The position numbers and the translations under genes were made by a program. Shown piece by piece: positions 1 through 8,694 of a DNA stretch of 64,000 nucleotides (its first letter is position 1; each line of letters opens with the position of its first letter). Source of the DNA: Undibacterium sp. CCC3.4. Lineage in GTDB: Bacteria; Pseudomonadota; Gammaproteobacteria; Burkholderiales; Burkholderiaceae_D. Location of the stretch: positions 1,116,001 through 1,180,000 of the forward strand of contig NZ_CP133779.1 of assembly GCF_034347425.1 (NCBI RefSeq), written 5' to 3'. The notes beneath the pieces were generated by a model that was not told the origin of the DNA, ran no database searches, and saw only the letters and a list, made by a program, of their open reading frames with translations.

Positions 1-280
1 CCGTGAAAAGCAAACGTATCAGCAGATCGATCGCCTGGTCGGCACCGTTCGCAATCAACAGGTGGTCGGTCGGCACCTGACAATACTCGCTTAAGGCGTC
101 CATCAGCGGTCCATAATTCGGATACGTGGAAAGTGACAGCACGTTCATCTCGTTGGCGATGAAATCGTCCAGGAAATCCGTCAGAAAGTGATTCTCGTTC
201 AAGTCAAGCATCAGGGTCTTGAAATTGCGATCCGGTGCCGCCCATACGCCCGATGCCTCGATATACTGGTTAATTTTCAT
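1..280 (-). CDS. HisC-like PLP aminotransferase (N-terminal part, cut by window edge)
   Basis: Only the first 93 or so codons are inside the window. The protein begins MKINQYIEASGVW and continues with LDLNENH, then STYPNYGPLMDALSEY and LLIANGADQAIDLLIRL. This is the N-terminal pattern of class I/II fold-type I aminotransferases related to histidinol-phosphate aminotransferase: a substrate-arm LNEN, a YP..... segment, and the NGADQAID cofactor-phosphate loop. The start ATG at 280-278 overlaps the stop of the upstream aldolase gene by four bases (ATGA), so the two are probably translationally coupled. It is the ninth visible gene of a minus-strand cluster. Within that cluster it could transaminate a keto intermediate, but the substrate cannot be told. 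The PLP lysine lies beyond the window. Confidence 0.8.
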   Translation of the reverse strand, partial: MKINQYIEASGVWAAPDRNFKTLMLDLNENHFLTDFLDDFIANEMNVLSLSTYPNYGPLMDALSEYCQVPTDHLLIANGADQAIDLLIRLLFT

Positions 281-1008
281 ATTGTTTTCCCATAAATGGC
301 CTCTTCGCCGATTCGATACATGTGTTCGATTTCTTCGGGCGCAGTGTAGGAAACCGGAAGTCCGGTCGACTTCGACACCAGCAAGCTCTTTATGATGCGC
401 GATATTTCGGCGCTGAAGGATACTGCGCGGTGGTAGGCTTCGGACAAATTCCGCCCCATCGTGGTGATGCCGTGATTCGGCATGACGATGCAATTAGTGT
501 TTTGGATAAAACCGGCGAGCGGACTGATATCGAGCTCGAGATTGAGCGACTGCGGCAGGATGCAAGGCGGGTTGCCCATCACCAGAGCAGTATCGTTCGA
601 GACATAGCACATTTCGTTGCCGTGCATGACTGAAAAATAGGCGATGACGTCGTCTGGATGCAGGTGAATCGTCGCATGTACATCAGGCCTGCAGCGAAAT
701 ATTTCACGGTGCATCTGGTAACCGATACTCGGCCTGATAGACCCCAGCAATAACTCATTGGTTTCCAGGTCGATCGCGACGATGTGCTGTTCGCCCATCT
801 CCTCGAGTGAAATACCGCGGTGCTTGGTATAGATGACGTCATTCCGGCCAGATTTTGGACGTTTTCTGATGGCGATATTGCCGAAGGTATTAGTGACCAG
901 GGCGCGAGCACTCAATCGCTGGGCGTACAACAGGATATTGTACACAATGGCAGCATCGTCCCCGACGGATTCCGCGAACGGCCTCAACGGCTGCAGCTTA
1001 GTTTTCAT
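277..1008 (-). CDS. class II aldolase/adducin family protein
   Basis: 243 residues, the normal size for zinc-dependent class II aldolases of the fuculose-phosphate aldolase/RhaD/AraD type. Visible motifs are TNTFGNIAIR near residue 40 (substrate loop), IHLHPDD near 115 (metal-binding histidine pair) and MPNHGITTMG near 178 (third metal histidine). Known members cleave or form C-C bonds in phosphorylated sugars or decarboxylate sugar acids. Here the context is not sugar catabolism but a cluster of thioester and amino-ketone chemistry, so the real substrate is unknown. It overlaps the dehydrogenase upstream by 11 bases and the aminotransferase downstream by 4, which argues for one operon. Confidence 0.85.
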   Translation of the reverse strand: MKTKLQPLRPFAESVGDDAAIVYNILLYAQRLSARALVTNTFGNIAIRKRPKSGRNDVIYTKHRGISLEEMGEQHIVAIDLETNELLLGSIRPSIGYQMHREIFRCRPDVHATIHLHPDDVIAYFSVMHGNEMCYVSNDTALVMGNPPCILPQSLNLELDISPLAGFIQNTNCIVMPNHGITTMGRNLSEAYHRAVSFSAEISRIIKSLLVSKSTGLPVSYTAPEEIEHMYRIGEEAIYGKTI

Positions 1009-1954
1009 TGACTAAAAGCTCCTTGTTTAACAGGTTGGAAGTCCATCCATGCGCTAGCATGTCGTGCAAGGCGCGCGCTGCGCCGAACCTGAGCTCGTAT
1101 AATGAGCGCTCACTGTAAAAGGCTGCGTGCGGCGTCAGCACCACGCGCGGATTCGCCCGCAGGCTGGCCGAGGGAACGGGCTCGCTGTCGAGTACGTCGA
1201 GATAGGCGCCTGCGACACGGCCACAAGCCAAGGCCCGCTCCAGATCGGAGCCGTCGACGAGCGCGCCGCGCGAGGTATTGACAAGGCACATGCCTGCTTT
1301 ACATCGGGAGAATAATTCCCAATTGAAGAAGCCACGGTTGGCCTGATTCAGTGGCATATGAATCGACACGATGTCGGCGGAACGCAATAATTCATCGAGC
1401 GTGGCGGGCTGCGCGTGGGCGGCCATGTCAGCGCCAGGATCAAAATGGCGTATCTGGTAACCAAATACCTGTGCGCGCTCGGCGACGCGGCGGCCGATAG
1501 CACCGAATCCGAGAAGGCCGAGCACGGTATCCTGGCAGCTTTTCAGTGCCCCCGGGTGGCGCCATGACCAGTGTCCCTTTTTAGTGTGTTCCGAATAGGC
1601 GAACAGCTGCCTTTGTGCCGCCAGGATGAAAGCCATCGTATGGTCGGCAACCTCATCGGCACCGATTCCTTGCAGGTGAGCACACAGGATACCTTTGCGG
1701 GTCGCAGCGGCGACATCGACATCATCGATTCCCACCGTGGCCTTGACGATGGCCTTGCAGCGATCCAGCTTTGCCAGCAACGTCTTGTCAACGGCCACGG
1801 AATGAAACGCGACGATCCCGACCGCCAGAGCCAGCATTTCGTCCGTTGGCCGGTTCGTGCGAACAATCGTGAAATCGGGACCGAACAGCTGCTCCTCCAG
1901 CGGCGTGTTATCGAGGTAATTGACAGTGCTGGAATCGATTAAAAGTATATGCAT
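998..1954 (-). CDS. D-isomer-specific 2-hydroxyacid dehydrogenase
   Basis: About 318 residues starting MHILLIDSS. A longer reading to 2092 runs into the upstream gene and is rejected. The Rossmann motif LGLLGFGAIGRR lies near residue 145. The catalytic trio is present: Arg in NTSRGALVD, Glu in DVLDSEPVP and His in LTPHAAFYS. Members reduce 2-keto acids or oxidise D-2-hydroxy acids with NAD(P). The family includes phosphoglycerate and glyoxylate/hydroxypyruvate reductases, and sequence alone does not separate them. It lies 37 bases downstream of the ornithine-cyclodeaminase-like gene and overlaps the aldolase gene, so it belongs to the cluster. Confidence 0.85.
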   Translation of the reverse strand: MHILLIDSSTVNYLDNTPLEEQLFGPDFTIVRTNRPTDEMLALAVGIVAFHSVAVDKTLLAKLDRCKAIVKATVGIDDVDVAAATRKGILCAHLQGIGADEVADHTMAFILAAQRQLFAYSEHTKKGHWSWRHPGALKSCQDTVLGLLGFGAIGRRVAERAQVFGYQIRHFDPGADMAAHAQPATLDELLRSADIVSIHMPLNQANRGFFNWELFSRCKAGMCLVNTSRGALVDGSDLERALACGRVAGAYLDVLDSEPVPSASLRANPRVVLTPHAAFYSERSLYELRFGAARALHDMLAHGWTSNLLNKELLVNEN

Positions 1955-1991
1955 AGATAATCCGTCAGTAGTTCGACCATCGTCGCTGGCT

Positions 1992-3005
1992 TCATGGCAC
2001 CGCGCAATCCAAATAAGTATTGCCTTGCCCAATCCCGAGTGCGCGCGCGCGCCGCACAATATGGTCGGACACGATGAGATCCTGGCTTGCATGGCCCACG
2101 CTGCGGAAATAACTCCGCCCGTTCGCTGGCCGCGGCCCGAAGTCGTTGTTCACCAGCATGCGCAGATCAGCCAGTTCCTCACTGCGCAGATAGCCGTGCG
2201 ACATCGCCGCGGCGATGTCGCCTGACTCACGCAGCGCCGTGTCGATCTCGTCGACATAGACGCGCGCGGTACGCAAGGTCAGAGGATCGCACTCGCAAGC
2301 GCTGACGGTACCGCCGCCGATGGCATTGATATGAACCTGCGGCTTGAGGTACTCGTCCAACAGGATTGGGGCGACGCCGGTGTGCGAGGTGGCCATGCAG
2401 ATGACATCCGCGTCCGCAATGGCGTCGGCGAGCGTCGCGGCCGCAGTCAGACGCACTGCTACCTGACCTGACATTTCCTCAACAAAGAGTTCGGTTTGCT
2501 TGGCATCGCGACCAAATACCTTGACTGCATTGAATTTCCTTACAATAGACAGGGCCAGCAGGTGGGCACGCGCTTGGACACCCACGCCGATGATCGCTAG
2601 TGTGCCGGCCTGTTGCGGTGCCAGCAAGTCGACCGCCAGCGCGCTTACGGCGCTGGTCCGGATCGACGTCAAGGCAGCACTGTCGAGCATGGCCGTGATC
2701 CGACCGCTCGCACTATCGAGCAGTACCACCACACCGTTGATTGTCGGCAGGCCATGACGTCGGTTATTGGGATAAATCGACGATACTTTGATGCCAAGGT
2801 GTCCACCTCGACTGAGCAAGGCTGGCATGAACAGCGACAAAGCGCCATGCTCTTCGTTGTCGATGATCATGCGCGGTGGTGCCACCATCTTCTCGGTGCC
2901 GGCCAGCATAGCGCGCAACGCCGCAATCGCTTCCGTCATGCGCAAGGCGCGCTGAATGTCTGAATTATTTAATAGCAACATGATGTCAATTTTCAGGCTG
3001 GTCAT
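1992..3005 (-). CDS. ornithine cyclodeaminase/mu-crystallin family protein
   Basis: 337 residues. The family pattern is clear: LLLNNSDIQRAL at the N-terminus, APPRMII, GHLGIKVSSIYPNN, a substrate-binding TSIRTSAVSALAVDLL, the Rossmann motif LAIIGVGVQARAHL near residue 135, and the late HINAIGGGT and YVDEIDTALRESGD segments. Family members deaminate ornithine, reduce ketimines or cyclic imines, or act as alanine or tauropine-type dehydrogenases, so the exact reaction is open. In a cluster with an AONS and an aminotransferase, an imine reductase role is plausible but inferred. A second possible start lies eight codons in (MLLLNN). It begins 6 bases after the desaturase stop. Confidence 0.85.
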   Translation of the reverse strand: MTSLKIDIMLLLNNSDIQRALRMTEAIAALRAMLAGTEKMVAPPRMIIDNEEHGALSLFMPALLSRGGHLGIKVSSIYPNNRRHGLPTINGVVVLLDSASGRITAMLDSAALTSIRTSAVSALAVDLLAPQQAGTLAIIGVGVQARAHLLALSIVRKFNAVKVFGRDAKQTELFVEEMSGQVAVRLTAAATLADAIADADVICMATSHTGVAPILLDEYLKPQVHINAIGGGTVSACECDPLTLRTARVYVDEIDTALRESGDIAAAMSHGYLRSEELADLRMLVNNDFGPRPANGRSYFRSVGHASQDLIVSDHIVRRARALGIGQGNTYLDCAVP

Positions 3006-3011
3006 AGCCGC

Positions 3012-4037
3012 TTAAGTGCTAGTCGGTGCAGAGCCCACGGCCGAAGGAAACGCCGATATGCAGCGCGGCGGCGTGTACTTCGCTTTCAGCGCAGCCCGCA
3101 GCCCGCCATGCTGGATGAAATAGAAATTGGGCGCGAAGTGCTGCATATGGGCAGGCAGGTGGATCCACGGGGTGGTCGGAAACACATGGTGCACGCCGTG
3201 ATAATTAAAGTTGAGCATGCAATACCTCTCAAAGAAATAGGGCATGCGGACATTTTTCGCGAACGAGCTGTCGTTCAGCGGCGTACCATAGTGGGCGAAG
3301 CTGTCCAGCACGGTCAGGATCAGGGCGCGCAGTATTAGCAGGCAGACCAATATCCAGAGAAATGGCCAGTACAGCAGCGTACCGGCGGCAAGCAGCAGTA
3401 TCGACGCCATCCCCTCCCATCGCAAGGCGGTCAGCTTGTTGGTGCGTATCAGGGTCGACAAAGGTGAGCCGTCGGTACCATCGACTCTGGTCGCGTATAA
3501 GACGCTCATCACCCGCAACATCAGGGCGCGGGGCAACCAGGCGATCACACAAGTCAGAAAGAAATCGTGATAGAAAGCGCCGACCAGTTTGGAATAGTAG
3601 TAGCGTGCTATTTTGCGCCGGCTCTTGGCCGGAGCGAGATAGACTTCGTCGCAATCGTTCACCGTGCGACTCCATTTATGATGCTTCAGATGGTCTATTC
3701 GTTGCAGATCGTATGAAATACCCACGAACACCGCCATGACCTGCCCCATTAAACGGTTCGCCGCCGGATGCCGGTGCAGCATCCCATGGATGGCCTCGTG
3801 CACCAGCACGCCGGTAGTCGATGAAATCAGCAGTGTCGGGATCAGGGTCAGAGCGTACCATGGGTTTCGGGCGATCAGCAGCGGAGCACCTAGGAACTGA
3901 TACAGATTGATCGCGGCAATGACGACGAAAATCACCCCGTTCATCGCTGCAGGAATCTCATCGAGCTGCTTGGTTTTGATCAGCGGCGGCGATTGCCGGT
4001 ACAACATCGGGTACAAATCGCTTATTGCTTGGCTCAT
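3012..4037 (-). CDS. membrane fatty acid desaturase family protein
   Basis: About 341 residues, with several hydrophobic spans: VIFVVIAAINLYQF, YALTLIPTLLISS, MASILLLAAGTLLYWPFLW and an ILVCLLILRALIL stretch. Three histidine clusters expected of a di-iron desaturase or hydroxylase are present: HEAIHG near 80, HLKHH near 117 and HGVHHVF near 285. The ATG at 4037 is preferred over 4046 because GAGGAA sits about nine bases before it. Such enzymes desaturate or hydroxylate acyl chains, acyl-thioesters, carotenoids or sphingoid bases in the inner membrane. Beside an AONS and an SDR, it may act on a long-chain amino-ketone or amino-alcohol; this is inference. Confidence 0.85.
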   Translation of the reverse strand: MSQAISDLYPMLYRQSPPLIKTKQLDEIPAAMNGVIFVVIAAINLYQFLGAPLLIARNPWYALTLIPTLLISSTTGVLVHEAIHGMLHRHPAANRLMGQVMAVFVGISYDLQRIDHLKHHKWSRTVNDCDEVYLAPAKSRRKIARYYYSKLVGAFYHDFFLTCVIAWLPRALMLRVMSVLYATRVDGTDGSPLSTLIRTNKLTALRWEGMASILLLAAGTLLYWPFLWILVCLLILRALILTVLDSFAHYGTPLNDSSFAKNVRMPYFFERYCMLNFNYHGVHHVFPTTPWIHLPAHMQHFAPNFYFIQHGGLRAALKAKYTPPRCISAFPSAVGSAPTST

Positions 4038-4085
4038 GACTTGCATTTCCTCTTGAAGTTGTTGGTAGCTTGTGGCTCTTTTGGC

Positions 4086-4826
4086 TCAGGCGAGCACGCC
4101 TCCGTCCACCGGGATGGCGACCCCGGTCACAAACGATGATTGATCCGAGCAAAGCCAGTAGACCACGTCCGCCACCTCGTTTTTCTCGCAGACGCGGTTG
4201 ATCGGATGGCTTGGGCCATATTGGTCGATGTCGCAGCCAACCACTGACTGTGCCATGGGAGTACGCACGAACGCCGGACACACGGCATTGACCCTGACCT
4301 GATGCACCGCATATTCCCTAGCGGCGGACTTGGTCACGCCAACTAAGGCATGCTTGCTGGCCGTATAGCCGACGCCGCCCGTCACGCTGGCGCGCAGCCC
4401 CGCCAGCGACGCCACATTCACGATGGTACCGCTGCGCTGCTCGCGCATCAGGGGGAGTACGCGCTTCATGCATAACCACGGCGCCTTGACATTGATCGCC
4501 ATGACGTCATCGAAGACCTCGTCCGGATACGCTTCGAAGCTGACGAAAGGCGTGCCTTCGATCCCCGCGCAGTTGACCAAGGAATCGATGCGGCTGTGGC
4601 GCATCGTTATGGCATCAAACAGCTTGGCGATCGCGGTGGCGTCGCGCAGATCAACCATGAATTGTTCAGCCGATCCTCCCGCCGCCCGCACTCGTTGGAC
4701 GACCTCCCGATTCAGGTTTTCGCGTCTGGCGCAAATGACGACGTGATAGTCCTCCAGCGCGAAGCGGAACGCGCAGGCTTCTCCAATGCCGGAATTTCCT
4801 CCAGTAACAACAACAATTTTCTTCAT
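4086..4826 (-). CDS. short-chain dehydrogenase/reductase
   Basis: About 246 residues starting MKKIVVVTGGNSGIGEA. The NAD(P)-binding TGGNSGIG, the NCAGIEG motif near 85, the catalytic Ser in NVASLAG, the YTASK catalytic Tyr-Lys and the late FVTGVAIPVDGG (FabG-type C-terminus) are all visible. The start at 4826 overlaps the MaoC stop by four bases (ATGA); the longer start at 4847 is rejected for that reason. Likely a ketoreductase or alcohol dehydrogenase using an intermediate made by the neighbouring enzymes. By analogy with 3-ketosphinganine reductase it could reduce the ketone made by the AONS enzyme, but the sequence does not prove this. Confidence 0.88.
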   Translation of the reverse strand: MKKIVVVTGGNSGIGEACAFRFALEDYHVVICARRENLNREVVQRVRAAGGSAEQFMVDLRDATAIAKLFDAITMRHSRIDSLVNCAGIEGTPFVSFEAYPDEVFDDVMAINVKAPWLCMKRVLPLMREQRSGTIVNVASLAGLRASVTGGVGYTASKHALVGVTKSAAREYAVHQVRVNAVCPAFVRTPMAQSVVGCDIDQYGPSHPINRVCEKNEVADVVYWLCSDQSSFVTGVAIPVDGGVLA

Positions 4827-5347
4827 TTGATATCGTACTTCATGCAATACGCTTTCTTGGGAACCAGAAAGGTACGCAGATACGTGATCACCACCGTCGA
4901 ATCTTGCTTTCGTCCAATCACCTTGATCGTGACGATGCCCTCGTTCGGGCGCGATGCAGATTCTCGCTTTGCCACCACTTCACTCTCGGCATACAGCGTG
5001 TCGCCCACTAGCACAGGATTGGGCAAACGAATTTCATCCCAAGCCAGGTTAGCCGTGGCTCGGGCGCTCATGGTCGATACCGTCATCCCGCTGACGATTG
5101 AAAGCGTCACCGAACTCGACACGAGCAATCCTTTAAATTCGGTTCGCTGCGCATACGCCTGGTCAATATGCGCAGGATGCTTGTTCATGTCGATCAGAGA
5201 TTGCCAGATGTTATCGACCTCGGTCACGGTGCGGCCCGGACGATGTTCGAAAATGTCGCCGATGTCGAACTCCTCGTAGGCTAGTCCGTACACTTCCCGA
5301 TAGCGTTTTTCACCAATGCGCTCATGCGCCAGTAACATGTCGTTCAT
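4823..5347 (-). CDS. MaoC-like hydratase/dehydratase
   Basis: 174 residues with a single hot-dog MaoC domain: the N-terminal YEEFDIGDIFEHRPGRTVTEVDN segment (shown here as two joined parts, YEEFDIGDIF and EHRPGRTVTE), then NKHPAHIDQAYAQ carrying the usual Asn/Asp-His catalytic region, then FKGLLVSSSVTLSIVSGMTV and PVLVGDTLYAESEV. This resembles mesaconyl-CoA, itaconyl-CoA or (R)-enoyl-CoA hydratases. The gene overlaps both neighbours by ATGA, directly after a CitE-like lyase. MaoC plus CitE pairs are known in itaconate degradation and the ethylmalonyl-CoA pathway, so a branched dicarboxylic CoA ester is a reasonable guess for the substrate class. Confidence 0.82.
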   Translation of the reverse strand: MNDMLLAHERIGEKRYREVYGLAYEEFDIGDIFEHRPGRTVTEVDNIWQSLIDMNKHPAHIDQAYAQRTEFKGLLVSSSVTLSIVSGMTVSTMSARATANLAWDEIRLPNPVLVGDTLYAESEVVAKRESASRPNEGIVTIKVIGRKQDSTVVITYLRTFLVPKKAYCMKYDIK

Positions 5348-6180
5348 AGCACTCCTTGTTTTTGCTCAAGGGCGCGGCGGCGCGCCAGGATTTTTTGCGC
5401 AAGCTTGACGAACGGCGGACCGATCATCATCCGATCAAGCTTGGTGATATTGTTGCCACTGCTCTCGACGGTGGCGAGCACTGCTTCGGCGTGCGCGATT
5501 TCGGCCTTAGTCGGCGTAAAAGCGGCATTGATGGTGTCGATTTGATTCGGATGTATCGCTGTTTTTCCGGCGAAGCCAAGTTGCATGACTTGCTTGCATT
5601 CTTCAGCTAAGCCCTGCTCGTCACCGAGCTTGAAATAAGCGGTATCGAAGGCGGGAATCCCCGCGTAGGAGGCGGCGGCCACAATTTGCGAACGCGCATG
5701 CAGGATGTTAGTCCAGCCCCCGATAGCCACACCGAGACTGGCCGCATAATCTGCCGATCCAAATATCAAGCCGTCGGACACTGCCGCAACGTCATAAATG
5801 ACACGCATGCAAGCGGGAGTTTCGACCGTGACGAGTAGTCTGATCGCCGAGTCAGAAAGATTTTGCCTTACGATATCGATTTCGGCCGCACTTTCGACCA
5901 TCGCCATCACAACATAGTTGGGCTTATGGGGTAAGGCATTAACTAAAAGAATATCCTTGAGTCCTTCCGGATGGTAAATTGAATTAATCCGTAACGCAGT
6001 GCAAGCCGATACCGGACACCGGTAGAAGCCGGAGACAATTGCACGTGCCTCTGCTTTCCTTTCCTTAGCCACGCCGTCTTCCAAATCGATGACCGTCACA
6101 TCGGTGTTGGTTGATTTGCAGAACTGGCTTTCATTGAGCGCGGAGCAATAAAGGAAGCTGCGCGGAGTCAGCGTCGTCAT
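5344..6180 (-). CDS. HpcH/HpaI (CitE-like) CoA-ester lyase
   Basis: 278 residues. RSFLYCSALNE at the start corresponds to the usual RS.L..P motif of CitE-like proteins. IDLEDGVA.. carries the conserved acidic pair, LRINSIY the substrate Arg, VTVETPACM a metal-binding Glu, FGSADYAASLG another metal Asp, and GKTAIHPNQID is the classic C-terminal motif. Members reversibly cleave malyl-CoA, methylmalyl-CoA, citramalyl-CoA or citryl thioesters with Mg2+. It overlaps the AONS gene upstream and the MaoC gene downstream by four bases each. Direction (condensation or cleavage) cannot be read from the sequence. Confidence 0.86.
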   Translation of the reverse strand: MTTLTPRSFLYCSALNESQFCKSTNTDVTVIDLEDGVAKERKAEARAIVSGFYRCPVSACTALRINSIYHPEGLKDILLVNALPHKPNYVVMAMVESAAEIDIVRQNLSDSAIRLLVTVETPACMRVIYDVAAVSDGLIFGSADYAASLGVAIGGWTNILHARSQIVAAASYAGIPAFDTAYFKLGDEQGLAEECKQVMQLGFAGKTAIHPNQIDTINAAFTPTKAEIAHAEAVLATVESSGNNITKLDRMMIGPPFVKLAQKILARRRALEQKQGVL

Positions 6181-7439
6181 GCCGTCACCATGTTCAACAG
6201 GCCGGATGGCAGACCGCTGCGTTCGCCCTGATAGCGCAATTTTTCTTCATTGACCGAGATACAAAAATCATCCATATCGACTTGGCTCATATCGGCGCGC
6301 ATCATTACGCGCAAACCCGATTTATTGCGCGCCACGATGGGGAAGAATACGGCCGAGGTATAGTAGCCGCGGCGGAAGACCGCTTGCGAAACTCGCACCG
6401 CCATGTCCGCATTATCCATCGGCACCACTCTGATCGGCAATTCGGTACCAGCATGTTGCGTAGGAATAAGCTGGTCGAAGTGGTTGATGTTGCGCTTCAG
6501 GCGTTGCTGCAGCTGAGCCAGCTCCGGAGTCCGGTGAATCTCGATCGAGGCCAGCGCTGCCCCGATGGCGGCCGGATTGAGATACTGGGAATAGGACATT
6601 GGCCCACCAAAGCGACGGAACTCCTTGATGTAATTAGCACGCTTGGAGATGAAAATACCGCCGCCGTTGGCACCGAAGGCCTTCGCTAGTGAGTACACCA
6701 AGATAGTGCGAGCAGACAGTTCTGGCATAAACGAGCGGATGTACCCTTCGCCGCGTTCGCCGTAGGCACTCAATGAATGCGAGTCATCGAAGTACAAGAA
6801 CAAGCCATATTTTTCCTGCAACTCCAGCAATCGCTCTATCGGGGCCGCGCCGCCCATGCTATATGCTCCGTCAGCAATGTAGGCAACCAACGGATGGCGT
6901 TTGCACATGTCTTCGATGAAATCGACGTCATTGTGATTACAGGTCGACACCTCGGTTTCATCACCGCATACCGCCTTCACCTGATTCAGGGCAAAGTGCG
7001 CATGCTTATCGAAAATCATGAACGGGCGCTGGCCGTCGGTGAACACACCAGCGGCCAGCAACGGCAAGGATGCGACAATCCCGGCGCTGCATGAGGTGGC
7101 GGTGAAGGCGGCACAAGAGAAGTGCAAGGAGAGAGCATCTTCGAGCTCGTCGAGCTCCTTAAGGCGAATACGGATGCGCGAGGTCGGCAGATTGACGGTT
7201 CCGGTTCGCAATACATATTCGGCGCCGCGCTGCGCCAATCGTGGATCGATCTCCAGCCCCAGATAGGAGCATGAGCACATATTCATGAACTCGTGCTCGT
7301 TTTGGTCACGCATACGACTACGCGCAACATGCGTGACGCTGCGGTCGGTCAATCCTGAATCCTGAGCAAGCTGCCAAGATGGATTGCCGATGGAAATCGT
7401 GCGTTCGGTATTGATGTAGGCGTTCTTCGAATCACTCAT
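6177..7439 (-). CDS. alpha-oxoamine synthase family PLP enzyme (KAPA synthase/SPT/CqsA-like)
   Basis: 420 residues, first gene of the cluster. The AONS fold is recognisable from MCSCSYLGLEIDPRL (substrate-entry N.YLGL region), TATSCSAGIVASLPLL, a central FDDSHSLSAYGERGEG (cofactor Asp and stacking His, usually DDAHG) and the PLP lysine in VYSLAKAFGANGGG. The family condenses an amino acid with an acyl-thioester and loses CO2, giving an alpha-amino ketone; examples are BioF, serine palmitoyltransferase, KBL, ALAS and the autoinducer synthase CqsA. DDSHS in place of DDAHG and the absence of any biotin gene nearby argue against BioF. The amino-acid and acyl substrates are unknown. Confidence 0.82.
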   Translation of the reverse strand: MSDSKNAYINTERTISIGNPSWQLAQDSGLTDRSVTHVARSRMRDQNEHEFMNMCSCSYLGLEIDPRLAQRGAEYVLRTGTVNLPTSRIRIRLKELDELEDALSLHFSCAAFTATSCSAGIVASLPLLAAGVFTDGQRPFMIFDKHAHFALNQVKAVCGDETEVSTCNHNDVDFIEDMCKRHPLVAYIADGAYSMGGAAPIERLLELQEKYGLFLYFDDSHSLSAYGERGEGYIRSFMPELSARTILVYSLAKAFGANGGGIFISKRANYIKEFRRFGGPMSYSQYLNPAAIGAALASIEIHRTPELAQLQQRLKRNINHFDQLIPTQHAGTELPIRVVPMDNADMAVRVSQAVFRRGYYTSAVFFPIVARNKSGLRVMMRADMSQVDMDDFCISVNEEKLRYQGERSGLPSGLLNMVTA

Positions 7440-7644: not shown

Positions 7645-7776
7645 ATCAAAAATCTGACTAGGGTTTGAAACCTCGGCCTCAGGCCGGTGAGCGACGAAGG
7701 AGCGACGCGATGGGACGGGATGCAACCCCTTCCAGAGTCTTTTCCATCGTCGCTTGCGACGATCCATTAAGTTGTT
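7645..7776 (-). repeat. dispersed outer repeat, copy A (short form)
   Basis: A short copy of the family, without the inner element, in reverse orientation: on the minus strand it starts AACAACTTAATGG and ends with AGATTTTTGAT. It contains the stem ATCGTCGC/GCGACGAT and a GGCC/GGCC stem-loop, here with loop TGA rather than TGAA. The final TGATCA is altered (flank reads TGCATCA on the plus strand). Apparent short proteins beginning MDRRKRRWKRLWKG in this and other copies are translations of the repeat. Confidence 0.9.
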
Positions 7777-8317
7777 TGTGGCTTAGTGCGCAAGAGAGTT
7801 ACGTGTGTTCAGCACTGGTAAAAATCATACCGTAGGATTTTTAAAATTTCAATCTGACGAGTTCAATTTTGATTATGCTTTTTAGCAATAATTGCCTATT
7901 CATGGGATTGGACAGGGGGGGGCGAGCCTGCCGCCGCCATGTATAATCAGTCTGAGTCAGGCTTCGAATCAAACATCAAAAGTCAATGACGGTTCTGGCG
8001 CGGCGTACATGGATGCCCCCCGGTTTGCCAAGTTCTCAATTATTGATTCGATTTCCCGGATGGCCTTAGCCAAAGCGGAAATGATGGCTTACTGGTGCGG
8101 TGGCAGCGGACGTAGGCTGTTACTCATGCTTGATGATGTTCTGGTTAAAGAGCAACTCTCACAATGTACTTCCTGATCATTCCTACGGTTTCAACACCGA
8201 TGACGTAATTGGTGATGCAAAATATAGGCAGCGGCATGCATTTGTAAGCGCATGCAATTGGCCAAAAAAGTCGTGCAAGAAGTTCGGCCGCAGGCTAAAT
8301 CGTTTTTGAAATGCTTG
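7777..8317. other. 541-base spacer between repeats A and B, nothing identified
   Basis: AT-rich at its left end. It contains an open frame at 7892-8176 that could encode 94 residues, but I see no ribosome site, no recognisable motif and no clear homology, and the left part of that frame runs through a G9 run. The stretch may be a decayed gene or mobile-element remnant. Confidence 0.4.
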
Positions 8318-8694
8318 AACAACTTAATGGATCGTCGCAAGCGACGATGGAAAAGACTCTGGAAGGGGTTGGCATCCCCTCCCATCGCGTCGCTCCTTCG
8401 TCGCTCACCGGCCAAAAGAGGCTGTCGCAAAAGGGTTTTCAGTCTGCATCATTACCCCAGCCGCCCGTAACGTCGTTCCTGCGCGCTTTTGGCAGGAATC
8501 CAGCGGCGTTCGTGGTTAACTGAAAATGCCAGAAGTTGTGGAATTTTCAGTGTAAAAAACGACACTAGGTTCCCGCCAAAAGCACGCGGGAATGACGAGG
8601 TATACGGTGTTTCAGGTGTAAAAAAAGCGTCCATCAGGCTTTTGCGACAGCCTCTGAAGGCCGGGGTTTCAAACCCTAGTCAGATTTTTGATCA
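8318..8694 (+). repeat. dispersed outer repeat, copy B (long form with inner element)
   Basis: Forward copy from AACAACTTAATGG to TGATCA. The outer repeat is interrupted after CACCGGCC by the inner element and resumes at TGAAGGCCGG. It forms the left border of the Rhs island; copy C in inverted orientation forms the right border. Confidence 0.9.
8418..8654 (+). mobile_element. inner MITE-like element in copy B
   Basis: About 237 bp bounded by perfect 16-bp inverted repeats GAGGCTGTCGCAAAAG and CTTTTGCGACAGCCTC. Inside lies a second inverted-repeat pair (CGTCATTCCTGCG-type left, CGCGGGAATGACG right). No transposase is encoded, so it would be non-autonomous. This copy has a single CGGGAATGACGAG unit, whereas copies C, D and E have two. 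Confidence 0.8.

Follow-up and report, generated by a model that had tools for sequence, protein, structure and literature searches.

The left end of the window, a stretch of 64,000 nucleotides from Undibacterium sp. CCC3.4 (contig NZ_CP133779.1, positions 1,116,001 to 1,180,000), carries an operon of nine minus-strand genes that includes an alpha-oxoamine synthase (AONS). We propose, with a probability of roughly 0.6, that the operon directs the synthesis of a small amino-acid-like or pseudopeptide compound, probably secreted, through carbon-carbon bond chemistry of the ketomemicin type, and we regard it as a member of an under-described group of ketomemicin-like, carrier-free pathways. Gene families, catalytic motifs, and conservation of the gene set were computed; every reaction and product discussed below is deduced from the families.

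An operon built around an alpha-oxoamine synthase

The genes, from the first to the last of the operon, are the following:

6177..7439, minus strand: AONS/BioF-fold alpha-oxoamine synthase, KtmB-like, with the pyridoxal phosphate (PLP) lysine expected at K253 in SLAKAFG
5344..6180, minus strand: CitE/HpcH-type lyase; best NCBIfam model RipC, 196 bits against a cut-off of 375
4823..5347, minus strand: MaoC-type hydratase/dehydratase; best NCBIfam model RipB, 211 bits against a cut-off of 340
4086..4826, minus strand: SDR oxidoreductase, ATG at 4826 (longest frame begins at 4847), optional among relatives
3012..4046, minus strand: membrane desaturase/hydroxylase of a small family, histidine boxes HEAIHGMLH, HLKHH, and HGVHH
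1992..3005, minus strand: ornithine cyclodeaminase (OCD)/mu-crystallin-type NAD(P) enzyme, probably a reductase
998..1954, minus strand: D-2-hydroxyacid dehydrogenase (DHDH), start shifted inward from 2092
277..1008, minus strand: class II aldolase/adducin-fold protein with Gly in place of the PSSE Glu; HLHP and the second His site retained
1..280, minus strand: 5' part of a HisC/CobD-type PLP enzyme, gene end at G000:C1:1115171, beyond the window

These nine open frames span window positions 1-7439 and were defined with an open reading frame list and with Pfam and NCBIfam profile searches, which assigned all nine families as an earlier note on this DNA had named them. The same note had described genes mostly overlapping by 4-11 bases, and five of the eight junctions do so (AONS/CitE, CitE/MaoC, and MaoC/SDR, -4 bases each; SDR/desaturase, +39; desaturase/OCD, +6; OCD/DHDH, +37; DHDH/aldolase, -11; aldolase/HisC, -4). 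Junctions were computed with the better starts of the SDR (ATG 4826) and DHDH (ATG 1954) genes; with the longest frames, MaoC/SDR becomes -25 and OCD and DHDH overlap by 101 bases. The view of a single biosynthetic operon around AONS is likewise borne out, its core being kept in other genomes. Leftward extension of the contig, as the note had suggested, completes the HisC-like gene (start 280, 369 amino acids from the likely start), which leaves the window on that side, and reveals EamA and LysE exporter genes on the same strand, with gaps of ~680 and ~510 bases. The EamA gene is not contiguous with the operon. At E 1e-40 it had no match in 40 other relatives and hence may be part of the island. 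The Pfam matches of these eleven genes (operon, EamA, and LysE) include no carrier protein, polyketide synthase (PKS), or nonribosomal peptide synthetase (NRPS) domain, in agreement with the note; the one exception is the SDR, which weakly matches a KR domain (31 bits).

The three genes at the head of the operon score above their family cut-offs. AONS belongs to the PRK07505 subfamily (478 bits, cut-off 342; NCBIfam), and Pfam places CitE in the HpcH_HpaI aldolase/citrate lyase family (105 bits, cut-off 25) and MaoC in MaoC_dehydratas (65 bits, cut-off 27). Alignments with relatives revealed conservation of the AONS lysine, the CitE acidic residues, the OCD lysine, and the DHDH arginine, all of which we take to be catalytic; the DHDH of one Pseudomonas relative (L010; L and G numbers are our handles for loci and genomes) has an altered end at the catalytic His. 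In all nine class II aldolase-like sequences compared (L008 excluded), Gly stands in place of the PSSE Glu, while HLHP and the second His site stay. This replacement makes an ordinary aldolase unlikely; the protein may decarboxylate or dehydrate.

In the proposed pathway, the RipC-like CitE would join acetyl-CoA to a 2-oxo acid to give 2-alkylmalyl-CoA, the RipB-like MaoC would dehydrate this intermediate to an alkylidene-succinyl-CoA, and AONS would couple the latter with an amino acid, with loss of CO2 and CoA, to yield a 5-amino-4-oxo acid. Such an acid would be a dipeptide isostere of the carbonylmethylene (ketomethylene) type found in ketomemicin. In Rip itaconate degradation, RipB hydrates itaconyl-CoA, RipC cleaves citramalyl-CoA, and a RipA-type enzyme serves as CoA transferase; since CitE and MaoC are nearest to RipC and RipB, they would run backwards here, converting a 2-oxo acid and acetyl-CoA into a thioester suited to AONS. 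The OCD-type enzyme would then reduce a C=N or C=C bond, DHDH, the aldolase-fold protein, and the HisC-like enzyme would build or complete an unusual 2-oxo acid or amino acid, and the SDR and desaturase would act as tailoring enzymes.

Distribution of the core genes

AONS lies near both CitE and MaoC in 18 of 23 named loci, and these 18 come from Pseudomonas, Psychrobium, a gammaproteobacterial metagenome-assembled genome (MAG), Xenorhabdus, Biostraticola, Sodalis, four myxobacteria, and three Streptomyces. The remaining five have CitE only (L023), MaoC only (L016, whose contig begins in AONS), or neither (L009, L026, and L030). The three genes also occur together in R. lusitanum (L057). Nine Pseudomonas loci (L008, L010-L014, and L069-L071) display the order AONS-CitE-MaoC-OCD-DHDH-class II aldolase-HisC, identical to that of the window; these full loci are mutually related and are defined by the seven-gene core, so that the presence of CitE, MaoC, and OCD in 9/9 holds by definition. 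The other two genes are less constant: a closely related SDR (56-62%) appears in three of the nine (L008, L014, and L069) and the desaturase in two (L008 and L069), as well as in the reduced loci L009 and L030. Of the combination AONS, CitE, MaoC, and desaturase, which the earlier note had singled out for a search, the first three genes recur together and the desaturase is optional. The desaturase family is small, with 23 of 6800 candidate proteins reaching E 1e-20 or better, and five of its members besides the window's own are on contigs equal in size to contigs bearing an AONS match, among the best 120 AONS matches.

The myxobacterial loci L017, L020, and L028 carry an MDR-type reductase after MaoC, in place of which the Pseudomonas, enteric, Algicola, and R. 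lusitanum loci carry OCD; OCD may substitute for this reductase. An ATP-grasp ligase is found in the Pseudomonas relatives L009, L030, and L069. In L028 (5439-9986, Pfam) the myxobacterial AONS-CitE-MaoC set adjoins an NRPS, and NRPS-like genes also occur at L018 and L020; the core may accordingly feed into peptides in these loci. The actinobacterial locus L083:1425-13445 shows isopropylmalate-synthase-like, dioxygenase, aminopeptidase P, AurF, and class II tRNA-synthetase-like genes around AONS, CitE, MaoC, and OCD. In L014 (16532-17266) and L069 (14266-15003), a regulator of the AbiEi family (a type IV toxin-antitoxin antitoxin family) follows the HisC-like gene.

The trait is sporadic and probably mobile. 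An AONS relative at E 1e-90 or better was present in just one (G099, 45%) of the 146 other genomes from the same genus, family, and order, and 11 of 398 Pseudomonas genomes drawn had one at E 1e-110, eight with 73-80% identity and three with 45%. The left chromosomal flank is common to the Pseudomonas loci L010-L013, L026, and L070, and so is the right flank except in L010, where the contig ends. In L011 (8801-8904) and L070, ~100 bp resembling the right flank are repeated at the left end of the island, as if they were direct repeats. In the window, long inverted repeats with arms of 35, 48, and 54 nucleotides (7645..8692, no strand assigned) lie directly upstream of the operon and are perhaps a mobile-element remnant. 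Among viral sequences in IMG/VR, 26 stretches fit a pattern and none encoded an AONS relative. Plasmids gave 125 records with an AONS match, with identity below 60%. Of the three opened, those from Pantoea and R. beringeri have AONS without CitE or MaoC matches and that from R. lusitanum has both; the AONS family by itself is therefore not diagnostic. Three matches came from a survey of 396 genomes of the S. albireticuli phylum, one being the S. albireticuli genome; the other two (L083 and L084) have the three core genes without the ketomemicin (ktm) set. A 406-amino-acid Streptomyces frame had no Pfam match and no resemblance to the ATP-grasp ligase. Overall, this distribution points to loci with a ktm-type three-gene core in Proteobacteria and myxobacteria, beyond Actinomycetota.

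A second leucyl-tRNA synthetase at Pseudomonas loci

A leucyl-tRNA synthetase (LeuRS) gene stands at the cluster end, after an MFS exporter, in L008, L009, L010, L012, L026, L030, L069, and L071 (L008 and L069 end within LeuRS). All nine Pseudomonas genomes searched whole have a LeuRS that is 52-53% identical to that of L010 and was taken as the housekeeping enzyme. Six of the nine have in addition, at the cluster, a second LeuRS (79-100% identical to that of L010), which is the new observation of this study; no second copy was found in whole-genome searches of the other three (those of L011, L013, and L014). A tree of 52 LeuRS rows (30 from the genus and order of the window, nine Pseudomonas housekeeping, seven cluster, and six others; midpoint root) united the seven cluster sequences in one clade (100/100) with a stem of 0.82 changes per site. 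The clade fell within the rows of the window's order, joining G091, G099, and G107 with 100/99 support, and was separate from the Pseudomonas housekeeping LeuRS. HMGH and KMSKS are intact in the seven cluster enzymes examined. Of 13 cluster-specific changes at sites that are otherwise invariant, eight lie in the stretch presumed to be the CP1 editing domain, which holds 53 of the 266 invariant sites (hypergeometric 9e-4); with a single ancestor common to all seven rows, this is weak evidence.

Three reduced Pseudomonas loci indicate what is retained when biosynthetic genes disappear. Compared with L010, L026 lacks ~5.0 kb from mid-AONS to mid-HisC (junction L026:10716-10723), and compared with L069, L030 lacks ~7.6 kb from within AONS (junction L030:10227-10230); the cut genes make both clear deletions. 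In L009, ~6.8 kb are gone just past an intact AONS (junction L009:11253-11254), probably also by deletion. All three lack CitE, MaoC, and OCD and retain MFS and LeuRS, and L009 and L030 retain the ATP-grasp ligase and desaturase as well. This is the pattern expected if LeuRS and MFS confer immunity, and it suggests that the product is directed at LeuRS. The spare LeuRS and MFS exporter would then be best read as self-protection, and the reduced loci look like former producers, now resistant non-producers. The spare LeuRS thus offers a concrete, directly testable candidate for target and immunity.

The window's genome has a single LeuRS and no spare; its identity to LeuRS within the genus reaches 87%, and it is thus native. 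Among the best 120 matches listed, the closest LeuRS from named organisms, likewise at 87%, belong to Undibacterium, in line with an assignment to the Burkholderiales. Two genomes of this genus, G025 and G010 (loci L113 and L114), encode a LeuRS only ~71% identical to that of the window's genome and branching apart from the rest of the genus, perhaps a LeuRS replacement.

A second locus and methionyl-tRNA synthetase-like genes

The window's genome contains a second AONS locus to the left of the operon (L007, G000:C1:1080001-1099000). At L007:9640-14751 (G000:C1:1089640-1094751), an AONS split by an rve/HTH_21 transposase gene, whose pieces share 36% and 52% identity with the AONS of the window, is followed by a methionyl-tRNA synthetase (MetRS)-like gene and a weak AMP-ligase match; the locus is a decayed sister cluster. 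More than one MetRS-like gene was present in five of six genomes searched, the extra copy of Sodalis being broken and the Xenorhabdus genome having only one; the MAG of L019 has two copies. The cluster MetRS copies belong to at least two lineages in a weak tree of ten rows with long branches, in which the copy of the window's genome, with HxGH and KMSKS present, groups with that of P. brassicae. The Biostraticola paralogue (L022:14713-16425) has no HxGH match and has KFSTS instead of KMSKS; lacking these synthetase motifs, it may have another role, perhaps as a repurposed synthetase.

The repeated recruitment of a synthetase beside the AONS core is the most interesting pattern of this analysis and the least proven. 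We advance only tentatively the possibility that AONS-CitE-MaoC clusters are widespread carrier-free antibiotic pathways. AONS would turn Leu (Pseudomonas) or Met (other clusters) into a non-hydrolysable aminoacyl-ketone inhibiting the corresponding synthetase, and a spare LeuRS or MetRS would both name the target and give immunity.

Weighing the proposed pathway and its alternatives

Several observations weigh against the ketomemicin-type pathway. CitE and MaoC score under the RipC and RipB cut-offs, the Pfam matches of the eleven genes include neither an amidinotransferase nor an ATP-grasp ligase, and the operon lacks the MDR-type reductase that follows MaoC in the three myxobacterial loci. 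Nor is any OCD enzyme known to us to use a substrate of this kind. The 23 named loci were picked by two peptide patterns from an alignment of close AONS relatives and are not independent, and some relatives have genes in pieces (the aldolase of L008, in two, CitE and MaoC of L021, and AONS of L029). The core is present without LeuRS in four full Pseudomonas loci out of nine (L011, L013, L014, and L070), and the window's genome has no spare copy; LeuRS is therefore not required. Finally, the likeness to KtmA-C is one of enzyme types, as PMC11943689 describes them.

The extra LeuRS and MetRS genes could instead be biosynthetic or translational spares unrelated to immunity, an explanation that is possible, though short of probable, and compatible with the ketomemicin-type reading of the core. 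It accords with the motif losses of the Biostraticola copy and with the loci that lack LeuRS, but the cluster LeuRS retain HMGH and KMSKS in all seven cases and LeuRS persists in three loci without most of the biosynthetic genes.

Alternatively, the product could be a cyclic amino-acid antimetabolite. CitE would convert glyoxylate into malyl-CoA, AONS would form a 5-amino-4-oxo-2-hydroxy acid, DHDH would oxidize C2, the amine would close to a pyrroline-2-carboxylate, and OCD and SDR would reduce this ring to a substituted hydroxyproline-like product. DHDH, OCD, and SDR would each perform their usual chemistry, and the best solved relative of OCD, which is present in 10 of the 23 named loci, is a delta1-pyrroline-2-carboxylate reductase (E 1.4e-42). 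The scheme is nevertheless unlikely: MaoC is left without a role, six of the nine full Pseudomonas loci lack a related SDR, and DHDH gave no match in the other OCD loci (L016, L021, L022, and L029).

The sphingoid-base logic favored by the earlier note, with AONS joining a fatty acyl-CoA to an amino acid, the SDR reducing the ketone, and the desaturase desaturating, fares worse. The three genes do stand together in the window, L008, and L069, but SDR and desaturase are both present in only two of the nine full Pseudomonas loci, CitE and MaoC are far more widely kept, and the AONS scores against the serine palmitoyltransferase models (79, 67, and 61 bits; NCBIfam) fall far short of the cut-offs of 500, 640, and 670. 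Such a lipid is very improbable. Least probable of all is an operon that degrades itaconate- or mesaconate-like acids, with AONS and the remaining genes in side roles. It would fit the nearest models RipB and RipC, but the Pfam matches of the eleven genes include no CoA transferase, the conserved partner is an irreversible C-C bond former (AONS; PMC11906848), and the nearby spare tRNA synthetases suit an antibiotic better.

Comparison with known systems

The operon resembles several described systems in part. The Rip enzymes are the nearest models to MaoC and CitE, both below curated cut-offs; the Rip system differs in its CoA transferase, and its reactions would be reversed here. Bacterial serine palmitoyltransferases share the AONS fold and a nearby SDR, with scores far under cut-offs. 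The closest solved relative of the AONS by sequence, Alb29 (287 bits), uses L-glutamate. Its structure is PDB 8XHA, and PMC11906848 describes it as the alpha-oxoamine synthase of Streptomyces albogriseolus. Furanomycin of P. fluorescens SBW25 offered a further lead; the available part of PMC3662646 names no gene cluster, so it is not comparable.

The closest parallel is the ketomemicin cluster, whose KtmA is presumably an HpcH_HpaI family member. PMC11943689 calls it an aldolase and lists aldolase ktmA, PLP C-acyltransferase ktmB, dehydratase ktmC, ATP-grasp ligase ktmD, amidinotransferase ktmE, and dehydrogenase ktmF; KtmB is described as a PLP-dependent C-acetyltransferase in PMC9239090. AONS, CitE, and MaoC, with no NRPS, thus match three of the six ktm gene types. 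The earlier note's remark that it knew of no described cluster with this set is only partly true to that extent; on the full nine genes, no publication was found in the open-licence PMC literature. The ATP-grasp ligase (ktmD type) appears in Pseudomonas relatives and not in the window's operon, which also has no amidinotransferase; OCD would replace or accompany ktmF, for which OCD, SDR, and DHDH are candidates. The DHDH-aldolase-HisC set, the desaturase, and the spare LeuRS are not among ktmA-F.

According to PMC11943689, ketomemicins and arphamenines are the only known natural ketomethylene pseudopeptides, ktm clusters occur in Actinomycetota, and arphamenines are made by a Gram-negative, Chromobacterium violaceum. 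Arphamenines differ in that their known target is aminopeptidase B, and no gene cluster for them appeared among the publications listed. A skeleton of the same ketomethylene type is what we would expect from the Undibacterium operon.

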